This document shows, piece by piece, positions 144 to 59,680 of a stretch of 64,000 nucleotides of DNA; within the stretch, counting starts at the first letter, position 1; each line of letters begins with the position of its first letter. Below the pieces are notes generated by a model that was not told the DNA's origin, did not search any database, and saw only the letters and a program-made list of their open reading frames with translations. A program made the position numbers and the translations under genes. The stretch comes from Bacteroidota bacterium (lineage in GTDB: Bacteria > Bacteroidota > Bacteroidia > Flavobacteriales > Flavobacteriaceae), in assembly GCA_027621175.1 (NCBI GenBank), contig JAQCCM010000004.1, positions 1-64,000 of the forward strand, read 5' to 3'.

Positions 144-1202
144 CTAAACCATAGGCATATCTTCTTCTTTTAGTTCTGCTATTTCTAAACCTCTTAAATA
201 GGTTAGTGAAACGTTTAAACTTGAATGCCCCATAGCTCTTTGTAGCTTGTGTAATGACCCTGTTCTTTTGAATATCTCTATTGCTCCTGAATGCCTAAAA
301 GAGTATAGTGTTTGCCCTTGTATTAAGAGCCTACTTTTAGCTTTATATCTTCCCCATAGTGTTTTAAAATATTCAGGGTTTGGAGGGTCTACAAATCCTT
401 GAAATACACTTCCACAGTCTTCCTTTTGTAGAAAAGGTTTAATGTAACTTGGAATTGGTACAATTCTATTTCTTCCTGACTTATTTCTCTCACCAGAAAG
501 CCTAATCTCATTAAGCCCTTTTGATATGTCTCCCCAACATAATTCACGGATCTCTCTATGCGGTCTAAGTAAACATCCATAAGTGAGTAAACTACATAAG
601 TGTAAGTTTTTATTAAAGCTTTTTATCTCATCTAAAACAGCTCCTACATCATCAAAAGGTTTATGAAGTTTTGCCTTGTTTTTTTTTGAGGGAATACCTT
701 CCATTGGATTAGACTTCATCCCCTGTACTCTAGCCTCATTTATAAGGGCTTTTAGGTGCCGTTTAAGCGTGTTGTAAGACACTCCAGACGAATACCTTGA
801 CAGGACATTTTTAATGGCCTTAGAATCAACTTTTGAATTTTGGATTTCATCATGAATTAATCTGTAACAATAACTAAGCATGTCAGTATATTTTTTGGAA
901 TAACCACCACTTAGTTTTGTATCCAGGGCTTGCTTTAAATATTCAATGTCTGTGAACTTACCAGCTATAACTTTTTTAGATCTAAACTCTAAAAGTTTAC
1001 CATCATTTAAAAGGTGCTTGTAAACATCAGAAGCCAGAATCTTTCCCATTTCATATCTCTGCTCAATGGGGTGTCTGTTTGGATCAATGGATGAGTTGAT
1101 CCTCTTGCCGTTGTACAATCTAATCCTCTTTCCCTCTATAGAGAAAGACACATAAACAAGTTGTTTATTATCAATATGAACCTTTGGAAATCTTATTGTC
1201 AT
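144..1202 (-). CDS. int: Tyrosine recombinase / phage-type integrase
   Basis: Site-specific DNA recombinase of 352 aa that cuts and rejoins DNA through a covalent tyrosine intermediate. The N-terminal part looks like an arm-binding and SAM-like core-binding region. The C-terminal catalytic domain shows the first catalytic Arg in LLRPHRE (about residue 214), then YSFRH (Arg about 303, with Tyr in place of the usual His three residues earlier, common in Bacteroidota integrases), GHSS (His about 326) and the nucleophile Tyr in LTYLRG (about 335). It therefore looks intact. The start lies about 75 bp from a truncated tRNA-Ala gene, the expected place for an integrase beside its attachment site. 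Two TTTGCCAGT repeats lie between them. Confidence 0.93.
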   Translation of the reverse strand: MTIRFPKVHIDNKQLVYVSFSIEGKRIRLYNGKRINSSIDPNRHPIEQRYEMGKILASDVYKHLLNDGKLLEFRSKKVIAGKFTDIEYLKQALDTKLSGGYSKKYTDMLSYCYRLIHDEIQNSKVDSKAIKNVLSRYSSGVSYNTLKRHLKALINEARVQGMKSNPMEGIPSKKNKAKLHKPFDDVGAVLDEIKSFNKNLHLCSLLTYGCLLRPHREIRELCWGDISKGLNEIRLSGERNKSGRNRIVPIPSYIKPFLQKEDCGSVFQGFVDPPNPEYFKTLWGRYKAKSRLLIQGQTLYSFRHSGAIEIFKRTGSLHKLQRAMGHSSLNVSLTYLRGLEIAELKEEDMPMV

Positions 1203-1277: not shown

Positions 1278-1322
1278 TCTTGACTGCCAGTCAAGCGCTC
1301 TAGCCAACTGAGCTACATCCCC
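1278..1322 (-). pseudogene. tRNA-Ala(GGC), 5' half only; attachment-site junction
   Basis: On the minus strand the sequence begins GGGGATGTAGCTCAGTTGGC, continues through the D-arm, and forms an anticodon stem CTTGA/TCAAG around the loop CTGGCAG, giving anticodon GGC (alanine). The variable loop, T-arm and 3' acceptor strand are missing; after TCAAGA the sequence becomes AT-rich and unlike a tRNA. The tRNA is cut just past the anticodon stem on the side of the integrase gene. This is what insertion of an element at the anticodon arm would leave. The rest of the tRNA should lie at the other end of the element, outside the window. Confidence 0.8.
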
Positions 1323-1553
1323 AAATATTTTTTCGCCAACGGCGCCCTGCCGCTGATTTCAAGTATTTTTCTCTTTTTCGAGCATCAACTTGAGTAGCGT
1401 GTGTTTCAGTATGCACTACTTTCCAAGGCACATACGATTTTGTTGAGCGTACCTGACCTTTATTATGTGTTATAAGGCGTTGGAATACATTCTTCGACAT
1501 GCCCTATAATTGCAAGCTCCTTTTTCGCTATACAAGATATAAACAAAAAACAT
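1300..1553 (-). pseudogene. Frameshifted GIY-YIG nuclease-family gene (UPF0213-like)
   Basis: From ATG at 1553 the frame reads MFFVYILYSEKGACNY, a typical start of a small GIY-YIG protein. The rest continues in a different frame as GMSKNVFQRLITHNKGQVRS, then TKSYVPWKVV and DARKREKYLKSAAGRRW. The frames change exactly at the YIG motif, where one base seems to be missing, so the second half of the GIY-YIG signature is broken. The ORF-track start at 1500 is only the first ATG after the shift. The frame ends inside the tRNA-Ala gene: its last residues, GCSSVG, are encoded by the tRNA acceptor and D-arm, and the stop is the TAG of the D-loop. A sequencing error could explain the shift. Confidence 0.75.
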
Positions 1554-1570
1554 TTTCACACGATTTCAAT

Positions 1571-1658
1571 GAGCACTCCTCGCCCGTACCGAAGGCTACG
1601 TTCGGGCTGGTAACCAACTGAGCCCCGCCAGAACGATCTGTCGGGCTGGTACAGCCCC
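1571..1658 (-). pseudogene. Decayed tRNA-Ala 5' half split by two hairpin-forming insertions
   Basis: On the minus strand three segments match the downstream tRNA-Ala half in order: GGGGCTGTA (8 of 9), GCTCAGTTGGTTA (12 of 13) and GAGTGCT (6 of 7). They are separated by insertions of about 26 and 30 nt, each beginning CCAGCCCGA and each able to form a hairpin (for example CCGAA/TTCGG in the second). The promoter box at 1667-1674 lies just upstream, so this may be the original 5' end of the tRNA gene. The alignment was made by eye. Confidence 0.55.
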
Positions 1659-1666
1659 ATAGCAGG

Positions 1667-1674
1667 CAAAAATA
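1667..1674 (-). promoter_or_regulatory. TAnnTTTG promoter box (TATTTTTG)
   Basis: An exact match to the Bacteroidota -7 element TAnnTTTG on the minus strand, 8 nt upstream of the decayed tRNA-Ala half. It would transcribe that segment, the GIY-YIG frame and the tRNA-Ala half. No convincing -33 TTG was found. Confidence 0.5.
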
Positions 1675-1697
1675 ATCCTTTTTTCCTTTTGTTTTAT

Positions 1698-2462
1698 TTA
1701 TGCGGATAAATAGTGAGGTAAAGCAGCAATAGAGCTTATGATGCCATCGGGCCTAATTTGACTTTGATCAATAAGGTGTTTTCGATACTTCCCCGTTTGC
1801 ACCAATACGGCTTGATAGCCTGCATCTTGTGCGCCTTGAATATCATTTACTAAGTCATCACCTACCATTAATAGCTCATGGGGTTTTGCTTCGAGTAATG
1901 AACTGCCCATTTCAAAAAAAGCTTGGCTAGGCTTTCCTACTACATATGCTTTTTTCCCTGTTGCGTGTTCTAGCGCAGCTACAAACGCGCCACTGTCCAA
2001 TTGCAGTCCTGCTTCAGTTTGAAAATAACGCCCTTTGTGAAGTGCTATAAGCTCAGCACCTTCTAGGACTTGATTCATCAATTCATTGAGTAAATCGTAG
2101 TTCCAAGAATTTCCAATATCTCCAATTACAATGGCTTCGGGTTGCTGTAAAACATTTGGAGGATAATCTGATTGTGCGACTTCTGCGAGAATTAATCGGC
2201 AGCGTTGTACCCCCATTTTTTGTAGTTGTAAGACACCTGCATAGTTGGCACTGAGCAGCTCGTCTTCTTGAATGTTGAGCCCCAATCCCTTAAGTCTTGC
2301 TACAAGAGCACTTCGCGAAAGCGTGGTATTATTGGTGATAAATTGATATTTGATTCCCTGTTTACGCAACCATGAAAGCGTTTCGTTTCCGCCAGAAATC
2401 AATTGATTTCCTACGTAAAACACGCCGTCTAAATCAAACAATACTCCCGTAATGGATTTCAT
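1698..2462 (-). CDS. HAD-superfamily IIA phosphatase, NagD/LHPP-like
   Basis: A 254-aa cytosolic phosphatase-like protein of the haloacid dehalogenase superfamily, subfamily IIA. The N-terminal FDLDGVFYVG contains the Asp nucleophile and the acid/base Asp (about residues 9 and 11). FITNNT supplies motif II, GKPS the motif III lysine, and MVGDDLVNDI the C-terminal Mg-binding acidic loop. The order and length fit NagD or LHPP-type phosphatases acting on small phosphate esters; the substrate cannot be told from sequence. It is transcribed divergently from the crotonase gene. Confidence 0.88.
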   Translation of the reverse strand: MKSITGVLFDLDGVFYVGNQLISGGNETLSWLRKQGIKYQFITNNTTLSRSALVARLKGLGLNIQEDELLSANYAGVLQLQKMGVQRCRLILAEVAQSDYPPNVLQQPEAIVIGDIGNSWNYDLLNELMNQVLEGAELIALHKGRYFQTEAGLQLDSGAFVAALEHATGKKAYVVGKPSQAFFEMGSSLLEAKPHELLMVGDDLVNDIQGAQDAGYQAVLVQTGKYRKHLIDQSQIRPDGIISSIAALPHYLSA

Positions 2463-3289: not shown

Positions 3290-3735
3290 GCAAAATTCGC
3301 ATTACCAAAAGCTTTTCATTTGAAACCGGACACGCACTTTACGGCTATGATGGGCTTTGCAAAAATGTACACGGCCACAGCTATAAACTTGACGTTACGG
3401 TTATTGGCACACCCATACGGGACTCTAACAATGTCAAGTTTGGGATGGTCATTGATTTTAAAGACCTCAAAGAAATAGTGAAAGACGAGATTGTAGATGT
3501 CTTTGATCACGCTACCGTTTTTAATCAAAACACACCTCATGTTGCCTTAGCAAATACATTAGAGCAAAGCGGGCATAAAGTGTTATTAGTGGATTATCAG
3601 CCTACTAGTGAGGAGATGATTATCGACTTTGCCGCAAAAATTCAAGCAAAACTCCCCCAACAAATCAAGCTGCATCACTTGCGATTGCAAGAAACCGCCA
3701 CTTCCTATGCCGAGTGGTACGCTGCCGACCAGTAA
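3286..3735 (+). CDS. queD: 6-carboxy-5,6,7,8-tetrahydropterin synthase (QueD/PTPS family)
   Basis: A 149-aa enzyme that converts dihydroneopterin triphosphate to 6-carboxytetrahydropterin in queuosine/7-deazaguanine synthesis. The zinc ligands are the His of FETGHALYG and the two His of NVHGHSY, and the catalytic Cys sits before them in GLCKNVHGH. VIDFKDLK and LQETATSYAEW are the usual substrate-binding and C-terminal motifs. It overlaps the upstream crotonase gene by 4 bp. The GLCKNVHGH pattern fits QueD better than eukaryotic-type PTPS. No other que genes are in the window. Confidence 0.9.
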   Translation: MSKIRITKSFSFETGHALYGYDGLCKNVHGHSYKLDVTVIGTPIRDSNNVKFGMVIDFKDLKEIVKDEIVDVFDHATVFNQNTPHVALANTLEQSGHKVLLVDYQPTSEEMIIDFAAKIQAKLPQQIKLHHLRLQETATSYAEWYAADQ

Positions 3736-3739
3736 TTCT

Positions 3740-3747
3740 TATTTTTG
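3740..3747 (+). promoter_or_regulatory. TAnnTTTG box 4 nt before the lpxH ATG
   Basis: TATTTTTG ends 4 nt before ATG 3752. Transcription would start at or next to the start codon, giving a leaderless or nearly leaderless mRNA. Confidence 0.6.
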
Positions 3748-3751
3748 TACC

Positions 3752-4513
3752 ATGAACATACCCAAAGGAAAAAAAGTCTATTTCGCTTCTGACAATCATT
3801 TGGGCGCACCCAATCATCAAAAAAGCAGGGTCCGTGAAAAGCAATTTGTCGTTTGGCTCGATACCATCAAAGCTGATGCTGCCGCAATTTATTTAATGGG
3901 CGATTTGTTTGATTTATGGATAGAATACAAAAGAGTTGTTCCCAAAGGTTTTGTTCGCGTGTTGGGCAAACTTGCCGAACTTGCCGATAGCGGTATTCCG
4001 ATATACTTTTTTGTAGGCAATCACGACATGTGGATGCAAGATTATTTTGAAACTGAATTGGGAATACCAGTGTATTACGAGCCGCAACAAATCACACTTA
4101 ACAACACCTCTTTTTTTATTGGGCATGGCGATGGCCTAGGACCCGGAGACAAGGGCTATAAACGCATGAAAAAAGTATTCCGAAATCCATTTATTCAATG
4201 GCTCTATCGTCTTGTTCACCCCGATTTGGGACTGCGTATTGCACAACATATGTCGTTAAAAAATCGTTTGATTTCAGGCGATGATGATAAAATTTATAAC
4301 GGTCCAGACAGCGAATGGCTGGTACATTACTGCAAGGAAAAGCTAAAAACCCAAAGCACGGACTATTTTATTTTTGGGCATCGTCATTTACCTTTAAATA
4401 TTGAACTATCCAAAACTTCGCGCTACATCAATTTGGGCGATTGGCTTGAATACAACACCTATGCCGTTTTTGATGGCAATTCGGTTACCCTAAGCACCTG
4501 GGAAACGTCATGA
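3752..4513 (+). CDS. lpxH: UDP-2,3-diacylglucosamine diphosphatase (LpxH-like)
   Basis: Metallophosphoesterase, 253 aa from ATG 3752; the track start at 3629 lies inside queD and is rejected. In lipid A synthesis LpxH cleaves UDP-2,3-diacylglucosamine to lipid X at the inner face of the cytoplasmic membrane. The metal motifs are in order: ASDNHLG (Asn in place of the usual His of DxH), GDLFDLW, GNHDMW, HGDG and GHRHLP. The Asp/Asn at the first site and the RYINLGDWLEYNTY tail match Bacteroidota LpxH homologues. Its stop overlaps hflX by 4 bp. Confidence 0.85.
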   Translation: MNIPKGKKVYFASDNHLGAPNHQKSRVREKQFVVWLDTIKADAAAIYLMGDLFDLWIEYKRVVPKGFVRVLGKLAELADSGIPIYFFVGNHDMWMQDYFETELGIPVYYEPQQITLNNTSFFIGHGDGLGPGDKGYKRMKKVFRNPFIQWLYRLVHPDLGLRIAQHMSLKNRLISGDDDKIYNGPDSEWLVHYCKEKLKTQSTDYFIFGHRHLPLNIELSKTSRYINLGDWLEYNTYAVFDGNSVTLSTWETS

Positions 4514-51384: not shown

Positions 51385-54189
51385 TTAATGTGCTTCCAGC
51401 CAGTTCTGCCCAACGCCAATATCGACCGTGAGCGGTACTTGAAGTGTGTAGGCGTTTTCCATTTCCGTTTTTACAAGCTGTGTTAGGGCATTTAATTCCG
51501 ACTTTGGACATTCAAAAACCAATTCATCGTGTACTTGTAGCAGCATTTGCGCGCTGAATTGTTGTTCTCGCATCTTGTCATATATATGGAGCATGGCAAT
51601 TTTGATAATATCGGCAGCACTTCCTTGAATAGGTGCATTGATGGCGTTTCGCTCGGCAGCACCACGTACGATGGCATTTCTAGAATTGATATCTTTTAAG
51701 TACCTGCGCCTTCCTAGAACCGTGGTAACATAGCCATGCTCACGGGCAAAATCTACTTGTGCACTCATATACGACTTCAGTTTGGGGTAACTTTCATAAT
51801 ACATATCAATAAGTTCCTTAGATTCGGAACGCGAAAGCGTGGTTTGGTTGCTTAATCCAAAAGCAGACACACCATATATAATACCAAAATTGACCGTTTT
51901 GGCTTGGCTTCGTTGCTCTCGGCTTACTTCTGCCAGTGGTACACCAAATACTTTTGCTGCGGTGGCCGCATGAATGTCTTCATTGTTGTTAAACGCAGCT
52001 ACCATACTGGGGTCTTCGCTTAGCGAAGCAATAATACGTAGTTCAATCTGGGAATAATCCGCAGCCATAAGCACATGCTGGTCGTCTTTGGCTACAAAGG
52101 CTTTACGAACTTGTTGTCCACGTGGTGTTCGAATAGGAATGTTTTGCAAGTTAGGATGATTACTACTCAGTCGCCCCGTTGCTGCAACCGCCTGATTATA
52201 AATGGTATGCACACGATTCGAATGTGCGTTTACGTCTTGTGGCAATGCCCAAACATAGGTATTATTGAGTTTTTGGACGCTACGCCATTCTAGAATATCA
52301 GCAACAATGGGATGATTTTTGGCAAGAATAGATAACACATCTTCTGCGGTGGAGTATTGTCCTGTTTTGGTTTTTTTGGGTTTGTCTACTAGTTTAAGCT
52401 TGTCAAATAAGATAGGTCCCAATTGCTTTGGCGATGCCAAATTGAAAGTTTCACCGGCTTGTTCAAAAATGCGTTCCGCTAATTGTTGTGCTTCTTGCTC
52501 CAGTTTACCTCCCATTTCGTTTAGATAGGGAACGTCCAATGAAATCCCTGCCAATTCCATGGCTGCCAAAACGGGCACAAGTGGCAGCTCTACCTTATGC
52601 AGTAAATCGCGTTGTTCGTTTTTACCCAATTCTTCCTCAAAATGCTCCTTAAGTTGCCAGGTGATATCAGCGTCCTCGGCAGCATATTCGGTTTGTTGAT
52701 CTAATGGCACATGGCGCATTGATCCTTGATTTTTCCCTTTTTTACCAATCAAATCTGTAATAGGTTTTGGACGATATCCCAAATAAGTTTCGGCAAGTAC
52801 GTCTATATTATGACGCATATCGGGATTTATGATATAGTGCGCCAACATGGTATCAAAAAGTGGCCCTTTAACGGCAATGCCATGTTGATACATTACCTTG
52901 ATATCATACTTTAGATTTTGTCCCACTTTTTCAATGGATTCGTTGTTAAAAAAAGGCGCTATATCGTTTAGAATTTCTTGACGTTCGGCTTTATTTTCAG
53001 GAACAGGGACGTAATAGCCTGTGCCAGCTTGCCAACTAAAGGCAATGCCTACGAGCGAAGCACTGATGGCATCTAAGCCAGTGGTTTCGGTGTCAAAGCA
53101 AACGCTTTTTTGACGCATCATGGTCGCTATTAAAAGGCTGCGTTCCATAGGGGTTTGCACGCATTGATAATGATGAGGTGTGTTCTCAAGCGATTTAAAC
53201 TCGGAGGCGGATTCTTCCTGTCCACTACCAGGCTGATGGAATAAATCAAACGCAACAGGAGCTGTTTCGGGAGTAGTGGGCTCAGCTTGTGCAGGCGCTT
53301 CGTTGGGCGCAAATACTTTTATAAAAGTTTCGCTGAGACGTCTGAATTCCAATTCTTGAAAAAGCGCTTTCACCGCAGGGATATCGGGCTGGCTAAGTTG
53401 GTAACTTGCCGCATCGAATTGCACGGGCACATCTAATAAAATACGTGCTAGTTTTTTGGAAAGCAGCCCCAATTCTTTGTTGGCTTCAATCTTTTCTTTC
53501 ATCTTACCTTTTAGCTCGTGCGTGTTTTCCAGAAGCGCTTCCATGCTTCCATATTGCTTTAAAAATTTTTTTGCGGTTTTATCACCAACGCTAGGAAGCC
53601 CAGGGATATTATCCACTGCATCGCCCATCATGCCCAAATAATCAATGACTTGTTCGGGATATTCTACCTCGAATTTTTTTTGCACTTCAGGGATGCCCCA
53701 AATTTCAATGTCATTACCCATACGTGCAGGGCGGTACATAAAAATATTTTCTGAAACCAATTGGGCAAAATCCTTATCGGGTGTTACCATATACACTTGG
53801 AAAGCCTCCTTTTCTGCTTGTTTAGCAAGAGTACCAATAATATCATCGGCTTCAAATCCTTCCAATTCAACAACAGGTATATGTAAGGCTTTGAGTAAAT
53901 TTTGGATGTAGGGAACCGCAATTTTTATGGCTTCTGGCGTTTCAGAACGATTGGCTTTGTACTCAGGGAACATGTCGTTTCGTACCTGCGACCCTCCTTT
54001 GTCAAACGCCACGGCAAGGTAATCTGGTCGTTCACGTTTTATTACATCAAAAAGCGAATTGGTAAATCCCAGAATGGCGCTGGTATCCATGCCCTTGGAA
54101 TTGATGCGTGGGTTTTTGATAAAAGCATAGTAGCCACGAAAAATAAGCGCGTATGCGTCTAAAAGGAAAAGGCGATTTTGATTGGCCAT
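51385..54189 (-). CDS. polA: DNA polymerase I
   Basis: A 934-aa repair and Okazaki-fragment polymerase. The 5' nuclease domain comes first (LFLLDAYALIFRGYYAF, EGFEADDIIGTLA, GLPSVGDKTAKKFLKQYG). The 3'-5' exonuclease domain follows with its residues kept (CFDTETTGLDA, NLKYDIKVM, YAAEDADITWQL), so proofreading is expected. Polymerase motifs A (VLMAADYSQIELRI), B (SQAKTVNFGIIYGVSAFGL) and C (LLQVHDELVFECP) complete it. Confidence 0.96.
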   Translation of the reverse strand: MANQNRLFLLDAYALIFRGYYAFIKNPRINSKGMDTSAILGFTNSLFDVIKRERPDYLAVAFDKGGSQVRNDMFPEYKANRSETPEAIKIAVPYIQNLLKALHIPVVELEGFEADDIIGTLAKQAEKEAFQVYMVTPDKDFAQLVSENIFMYRPARMGNDIEIWGIPEVQKKFEVEYPEQVIDYLGMMGDAVDNIPGLPSVGDKTAKKFLKQYGSMEALLENTHELKGKMKEKIEANKELGLLSKKLARILLDVPVQFDAASYQLSQPDIPAVKALFQELEFRRLSETFIKVFAPNEAPAQAEPTTPETAPVAFDLFHQPGSGQEESASEFKSLENTPHHYQCVQTPMERSLLIATMMRQKSVCFDTETTGLDAISASLVGIAFSWQAGTGYYVPVPENKAERQEILNDIAPFFNNESIEKVGQNLKYDIKVMYQHGIAVKGPLFDTMLAHYIINPDMRHNIDVLAETYLGYRPKPITDLIGKKGKNQGSMRHVPLDQQTEYAAEDADITWQLKEHFEEELGKNEQRDLLHKVELPLVPVLAAMELAGISLDVPYLNEMGGKLEQEAQQLAERIFEQAGETFNLASPKQLGPILFDKLKLVDKPKKTKTGQYSTAEDVLSILAKNHPIVADILEWRSVQKLNNTYVWALPQDVNAHSNRVHTIYNQAVAATGRLSSNHPNLQNIPIRTPRGQQVRKAFVAKDDQHVLMAADYSQIELRIIASLSEDPSMVAAFNNNEDIHAATAAKVFGVPLAEVSREQRSQAKTVNFGIIYGVSAFGLSNQTTLSRSESKELIDMYYESYPKLKSYMSAQVDFAREHGYVTTVLGRRRYLKDINSRNAIVRGAAERNAINAPIQGSAADIIKIAMLHIYDKMREQQFSAQMLLQVHDELVFECPKSELNALTQLVKTEMENAYTLQVPLTVDIGVGQNWLEAH

Positions 54190-59469: not shown

Positions 59470-59553
59470 TTGGCCTAAAGTTTAAGCTGCCAAAGGCAGC
59501 AAAGCTGGCAACACGCCTGCCTGCCGGCAGGCAGGTCTGATTCAAAATCAGAC
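59470..59553 (+). pseudogene. Decayed tRNA-Gln 5' half split by hairpin insertions
   Basis: Three segments match the intact tRNA-Gln below, in order: TTGGCCTA, CTGGCAACACG and GTCTGATT. They are separated by GCTGCC-AAA-GGCAGC (a perfect 6-bp hairpin with flanks) and by the perfect 20-bp palindrome CCTGCCTGCCGGCAGGCAGG (59516-59535). The end GTCTGATT-CAA-AATCAGAC (59535-59553) is another perfect hairpin. No 3' half is present. Confidence 0.55.
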
Positions 59554-59601
59554 TTTTCCGGCAGAAGTGTAGCTTCTACTTTTAATTGAAGCTTGATATA
59601 T

Positions 59602-59674
59602 TGGCCTATGGTGTAACTGGCAACACGTCTGATTTTGGTTCAGAAGAGTCTAGGTTCGAGCCCTAGTAGGCCAA
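59602..59674 (+). tRNA. tRNA-Gln (anticodon TTG)
   Basis: A complete cloverleaf: acceptor TGGCCTA/TAGGCCA, D-arm with GTAACTGGCAACAC, anticodon stem TCTGA/TCAGA around TTTTGGT giving TTG (reads CAA, glutamine), and T-arm CTAGGTTCGAGCCCTAG. The CCA end is not encoded. The U1-A72 start is a normal tRNA-Gln identity feature. A terminator follows immediately. Confidence 0.95.
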
Positions 59675-59680
59675 CAAAAA

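Follow-up and report, generated by a model that had tools for sequence, protein, structure and literature searches.

A small GIY-YIG nuclease gene that splits tRNA genes in bacteria: probable remnant of a tRNA-gene-invading mobile element

A GIY-YIG nuclease gene between two tRNA-Ala halves

We analyzed 64,000 nucleotides of DNA (the window) that start at base 1 of a contig in the genome of a Bacteroidota bacterium of the family Flavobacteriaceae; the assembly comprises 1.73 Mb in 42 contigs and is 86% complete. Near the start of the window, on the minus strand, a GIY-YIG nuclease gene lies between two copies of the 5' half of a tRNA-Ala(GGC) gene, with the following features in the order in which they are read. 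Genomes used for comparison are designated by G numbers.

1698 to 2462, minus strand: HAD-like gene upstream of the box, the synteny anchor to empty sites
1666 to 1675, minus strand: promoter-like box TTATTTTTGC, separated by 7 nt from the displaced tRNA half and matching the box of the empty sites in G011 and G012
1571 to 1658, minus strand: displaced (original) tRNA-Ala(GGC) 5' half with two interruptions, placed by shuffle-tested alignment; orthologous copies in G001, G006, G007, and G014
1624 to 1649, minus strand: hairpin insert 1, after tRNA nt 9 (GTA^GCTC), located by alignment
1578 to 1610, minus strand: hairpin insert 2, in the D-loop (TTA^G), a site shared with 51 of 69 surveyed insertions
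1323 to 1553, minus strand: GIY-YIG nuclease gene with two single-base deletions (Pfam PF01541); intact orthologues in G006, G007, and G014
1278 to 1322, minus strand: replacement tRNA-Ala(GGC) 5' half, nt 1 to 45, identical to the intact tRNA-Ala of relatives
144 to 1202, minus strand: tyrosine recombinase of an island (PF00589)

Read from position 1658, the displaced half consists of GGGGCTGTA, a hairpin (1649 to 1624), GCTCAGTTGGTTA, and a second hairpin (1610 to 1578). Its alignment to tRNA-Ala scores 25, above all 300 dinucleotide-preserving shuffles (maximum 23) and 300 random segments of the window (maximum 24), a modest margin when taken alone. The displaced half of tRNA-Ala in G007 has 22/22 identity, and comparison with the same-genus orthologues settles the identity of the segment, in our judgment with certainty. 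The clean half (1322 to 1278) matches the Rfam tRNA model at 36.5 bits, over a span that takes in a chimeric, non-tRNA 3' side; ARAGORN called no tRNA at this locus. Beyond nt 45, where an island cuts the replacement tRNA-Ala, lie unrelated sequence and the tyrosine recombinase gene.

Compared with G006 and G007, the nuclease gene of the window lacks one base near 1507–1500 and one A near 1333–1328, and the profile match to its coding sequence contains two in-frame TAG codons. The 66-aa open reading frame at this position is therefore no more than a fragment of a frameshifted nuclease gene. Intact relatives terminate in ...GM*, with the stop codon TAG formed by tRNA nt 8–10, and the NIWGCSSVG tail seen in the window results from the second frameshift, the missing A. 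A preliminary description of this DNA had placed the promoter box, the broken half, the GIY-YIG gene, and the clean half on the minus strand, all of which we find where it put them. It had further made it a test of the model whether the upstream segment aligns to tRNA-Ala better than shuffled sequence does, which is the case by the small margin given above, and had taken fusion of the reading frame to the tRNA (GCSSVG) as fitting the joint of an element, a reading that the frameshift overturns. We also considered a group I intron carrying a GIY-YIG endonuclease and rejected it, as Rfam scans of the whole window, together with a permissive scan of 1000–1750, returned no intron family around the reading frame.

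Empty, full, and scarred alleles in one genus

Within the genus, three states are seen at the locus that follows the HAD gene. In the empty sites of G011 and G012, the HAD gene is followed by the box, 7 nt, and a plain tRNA-Ala. G007 carries a full element together with an intact tRNA-Ala, G014 a tandem, and G006 an arrangement similar to these. The nuclease gene, which has no intron, is thus present in these three genomes and absent from the otherwise matching alleles of G011 and G012. Three further alleles are scars: G002 retains a hairpin-broken 5' copy and the final bases of the nuclease coding sequence, G008 just those final bases, and G001 a 5' copy broken by two hairpins, with the nuclease gene absent. 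The 7 nt between box and tRNA in the empty sites are matched, in G001 and in the window, by 7 nt between the box and the displaced half. This spacing and the allele states show that the displaced half is the original 5' end of the tRNA gene and that the clean half arrived with the nuclease gene.

A second locus in the window is a scar, with these features:

59471 to 59542, plus strand: displaced tRNA-Gln 5' half with two hairpins (alignment score 33, reached by 0 of 300 shuffles)
59516 to 59535, plus strand: hairpin CCTGCCTGCCGGCAGGCAGG inside the displaced tRNA-Gln half
59602 to 59675, plus strand: intact tRNA-Gln(TTG) downstream of the scar (ARAGORN; Rfam 63.6 bits)

Positions 59471–59601 hold a promoter-like box and the displaced half and have no nuclease gene; they are the scar of a lost element of the kind present at tRNA-Ala. 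Elsewhere in the same genome (G000), downstream of an intact tRNA-Leu(TAG), lies a displaced 3' copy interrupted by two hairpins (L299, C29:6660-9679), a scar of the 3'-replacing form described below. A GIY-YIG array also lies at tRNA-Arg(TCT) in this genome (L011/L016, C28, near 52600–53300), where a perfect hairpin, TTCCGATTTCAAATCGGAA, stands in place of the anticodon arm in several displaced tRNA pieces.

Related genes beside tRNAs in two mirror forms

We surveyed related genes with protein profiles of tRNA-adjacent GIY-YIG genes, without using position as a search criterion, and obtained 259 distinct, near-full genes from de-duplicated loci, several of them in MAGs. A tRNA gene lies on the same strand within 150 nt of 161 of the 259, and an opposite-strand tRNA beside none (0/259). 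tRNA density was 1.80/kb near the surveyed genes versus 0.066/kb at distances of 600 nt or more. Adjacency also followed profile score, from 61 of 68 genes above 110 bits to 3 of 25 at 50–70 bits; it is a mark of a subfamily and not of GIY-YIG genes at large.

The adjacent genes take two forms. Genes of the 5'-replacing form lie immediately upstream of an intact tRNA, and a displaced 5' part of the same tRNA is found ahead of 72 of these 82 genes. These copies start at tRNA nt 1–2 in 66 of 72 cases, and their median identity over matched bases is 100%. Genes of the 3'-replacing form come after an intact tRNA with its terminator; a displaced 3' part lies beyond the gene in 64 of 76 cases and finishes at the tRNA 3' end in 59 of those 64. 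These form counts are slightly blurred by ARAGORN calls of "tRNA-SeC" or "Stop" that resemble chimeric or displaced pieces (L021, L044, L049, and L269), and a few loci are assigned to the wrong form where chimeric pieces were read as tRNA-SeC. Tandem arrays occur as well; in G160, for instance, tRNA-Met is followed by five units of ~365 bp, and G075 has at least eight units.

Host tRNAs include those for Ala, Arg (several), Met, Val, Leu, Asp, Gln, Phe, Asn, Glu, Pro, His, and Ser. The genes range over Bacteroidota, Ignavibacteria, Planctomycetota, Neomarinimicrobiota, and the candidate phyla radiation; among the carriers are Gelidibacter, Arenibacter, Flagellimonas, Pseudozobellia, Ekhidna, Maribellus, and Terrimonas, Candidatus Scalindua, members of the Ignavibacteria and Neomarinimicrobiota, and Yanofsky-, Uhr-, and Lloydbacteria MAGs. 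Spread by way of sequenced phages was considered and rejected, since 50,697 phage records yielded a single weak match.

The preliminary description had pictured a nuclease gene that came into the tRNA gene with a replacement 5' half and left the original one behind. The same-genus alleles support this core model, empty loci in relatives, which it had made a test, exist in G011 and G012, and at 72 of the 82 loci with the gene upstream of a tRNA, another 5' part of that tRNA comes before the gene. Two of its points hold in part. The half left behind is indeed displaced, but decay is not its usual fate: matched bases have a median identity of 100%, and it is cut by a hairpin instead. Restoration of the 5' part is borne out for the 5'-replacing form, and the mirror form that restores the 3' part is equally common.

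Hairpins in the displaced copies

A long insertion interrupts 61 of the 72 displaced 5' copies, and most of the others either contain a hairpin of shorter length or belong to arrays that were misassigned. Of 69 insertions, 51 lie at nt 20–23, in the D-loop, and 64 fold more strongly than their own shuffles; shuffle tests in this work used 20–300 shuffles each. In displaced 3' copies, the commonest insertion site is the T-loop, at GTTC^GA.

Conservation and phylogeny of the nuclease

The proteins have the features of the GIY-YIG superfamily, namely the GIY and YIG tyrosines, a central arginine, and a C-terminal glutamate, and the fragment in the window matches PF01541. Tyr5, Tyr16, Arg26, His30, and Glu62 are each kept in at least 159 of 161 tRNA-adjacent members, and median dN/dS over 51 pairs is 0.11. 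Conservation of the catalytic residues and the low dN/dS together indicate that the protein is maintained as a nuclease. By sequence profile, the nearest solved structures are the UPF0213-type entries PDB 1zg2 and 1ywl. Like the proteins here, UPF0213-type proteins are small and consist of a single GIY-YIG domain; they are recorded as hypothetical.

A tree of the proteins, built from few columns and poorly resolved, places at least eight changes between the 5'- and 3'-replacing modes on strongly supported branches, and host amino acid also switches often on this poorly resolved tree. Because both mode and host change repeatedly, the elements probably move between tRNAs.

Interpretation and alternatives

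We consider it likely that the window holds the remnant of a small mobile element that invades tRNA genes and is organized around a single-domain GIY-YIG nuclease of about 80–90 aa. Its anatomy is evident from the loci above: the gene sits within what was a single tRNA gene, the original part of which is left at the old promoter or old terminator and bears a hairpin, while a complete tRNA is reconstituted with the replacement part that is joined to the nuclease gene. Tandem copies and scars of the element are found, as are sites without it. Taken together, anatomy, distribution, and conservation most likely reflect intron-less homing by the nuclease. The nuclease would make a double-strand break in an uninvaded tRNA gene, and repair of the break would copy the element in. 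The carried replacement half would preserve tRNA function and so render the insertion harmless, and the hairpin would destroy the site of cutting in the half that is displaced. In the copy described here, the nuclease gene later decayed, and an unrelated integrase island split the rebuilt tRNA-Ala.

GIY-YIG homing in tRNA genes has a precedent in SegB of T-even phages, a homing endonuclease that cuts inside tRNA genes (PMC13096335; Brok-Volchanskaya 2008, cited there). SegB prefers RAWTSGAAC, the other strand of which, GTTCSAWTY, corresponds to the T-loop consensus; it also causes tRNA-segB units to amplify in tandem, helped by microhomology of the tRNA 5' end with the segB 3' end (PMC13096335). 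As with SegB and other free-standing GIY-YIG homing endonucleases, the nuclease gene here is found next to tRNA genes and is not encoded in an intron. SegB, as described there, is a phage protein within a tRNA cluster, whereas the element here is chromosomal and splits single tRNA genes; displaced halves, replacement halves, and hairpin breaks are features of this element that are absent from the passages on SegB consulted (PMC13096335). The SegB motif matches about half of the intact tRNAs in both forms (36 of 76 3'-replacing and 35 of 82 5'-replacing loci) and is still present in 17 displaced regions. It was therefore rejected as a clean discriminator of the two forms, and the parallel is only suggestive.

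A closer structural analogy comes from the mORFs of fungal mitochondria (for example, Allomyces atp6 and Glomus atp6, atp9, cox2, and nad3), whose endonuclease ORF supplies a new end for the gene that it enters (PMC3630166). There, as here, an inserted endonuclease ORF adjoins a replacement terminal part and a displaced native part (PMC3630166). mORFs lie in mitochondrial protein genes and replace C-termini, whereas the element here replaces the 5' or 3' part of bacterial tRNA genes and, unlike mORFs, has a hairpin that cuts the displaced part. Among open-access journal papers on GIY-YIG genes with tRNA genes in Bacteroidota, we found nothing on this element, and a 2006 survey of the GIY-YIG superfamily mentions tRNA in other contexts only. 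The element is apparently undescribed, with priority uncertain given this open-access scope.

Three other accounts of the whole locus deserve consideration. That a host GIY-YIG gene lies beside tRNAs by chance, the partial copies having arisen through tandem duplication by unequal recombination without any homing, strikes us as improbable: arrays do have periods of ~300–400 bp, and the promoter or terminator is duplicated as well at L062, L138, and L137, but copy boundaries coincide with tRNA nt 1 or the tRNA 3' end, a hairpin breaks nearly every displaced copy, related genes occur at dozens of different tRNA hosts, and empty sites keep an identical promoter spacing. We think it quite improbable that the genes form a functional module linked to tRNAs, acting in stress, as a toxin-antitoxin, or in phage defence, in which a co-transcribed nuclease senses or cuts tRNA and the insertion is regulatory. 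The purifying selection noted above would fit such a role, and low dN/dS would suit a host function equally well, which counts against the homing view; the fact that all 161 adjacent genes share the strand of their tRNA points the same way, as does the report that tandem amplification of tRNA and segB aids phage against tRNA-cutting defence (PMC13096335). Yet the genes are patchy within one genus, with scars and empty alleles, the 300–400 bp units have no partner gene, and PADLOC hits are only weak and partial.

Classical tRNA islands are integrase-based and rebuild the tRNA 3' end. The element here resembles tyrosine-recombinase islands in using a tRNA gene as its insertion site and in rebuilding the tRNA; it differs from classical islands in that its units hold a GIY-YIG gene only and one of its forms restores the 5' part. 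That such an island made the whole structure, with the tRNA halves as attachment sites and the GIY-YIG gene as cargo, is extremely improbable. It is true that an integrase adjoins the tRNA-Ala half and that the cut falls at nt 45, but the GIY-YIG gene accompanies an intact tRNA-Ala in G006, G007, and G014, and in G001 the island is present and the GIY-YIG gene is not; for the GIY-YIG part, these genomes refute the island integrase as the source of the duplicated half.

A further alternative concerns the hairpins only and is compatible with intron-less homing as the explanation of the remaining structure: ordinary REP-like repeats may have drifted into dead tRNA pieces, unrelated to the element. 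We regard this as unlikely. A 20-nt hairpin (3 mismatches or fewer) occurs merely seven times in the 1.73 Mb of the window's genome, and five of these sites are displaced tRNA copies (one in Gln, one in Arg, and two in Leu) or, in one case, the flank of another GIY-YIG gene, the Gln copy being the scar upstream of tRNA-Gln in the window; moreover, hairpins recur at the same tRNA position across unrelated genomes. In its favor, hairpins of the same type also lie away from tRNAs (C28:217244 and C29:38550).

We tentatively suggest a more specific version of the homing reading, one that is conceivable though we would not expect it to hold in every part: a widespread gene-drive-like bacterial system in which single-domain GIY-YIG nucleases would cut the conserved D-loop (5'-replacing form) or T-loop (3'-replacing form), supply a replacement half, and place or capture an immunizing hairpin at the cut site, with tandem tRNA-nuclease arrays and hops between isoacceptors to follow through the same nuclease. 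Displaced halves are interrupted by hairpins, yet the rebuilt tRNA retains the same sequence, including the presumed target, and self-protection must therefore rest on flanking sequence. On the homing reading, these loci would offer a concrete case of a selfish gene that sits inside essential bacterial tRNA genes and mends its own damage, in two mirror forms. The element may account for many small ORFs of the "GIY-YIG nuclease family" near tRNAs and for some tRNA pseudogene fragments.

The integrase island

The integrase is lacking from the GIY-YIG units (~300–400 bp), and the gene at 144–1202 belongs to a separate insertion. G001 shares this island junction, with 94% identity over 1.18 kb; with this island-only allele and the GIY-YIG genes beside intact tRNA-Ala in G006, G007, and G014, we conclude that the two insertions are independent. 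The clean 5' half has no 3' half of its own because the island entered at tRNA nt 45. The genome of the window (86% complete) yielded neither a 3' half of tRNA-Ala(GGC) nor an intact copy of this tRNA; as the 3' half was not found, the far end of the island is out of view.

In G016, a tRNA-Ala(GGC) 3' half (nt about 32–74, 91% identical, with a changed T-arm) lies at the far end of an island (L183/L215, C13), and this tRNA seems to be dispensable in the genus. At L214 in G001 (C29:11700-15926), the last 45–64 bp of the integrase gene are repeated after every cargo gene, at 1183–1232, 2858–2904, 3721–3784, and 4167–4210; the corresponding sequence in the window is at 141–233. The arrangement resembles an array of cassettes with copies of the 3' end of the integrase gene as their boundaries. 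Remnants also occur in G014, after tRNA-Ala, and in the genome of the window, close to tRNA-Met (L007).
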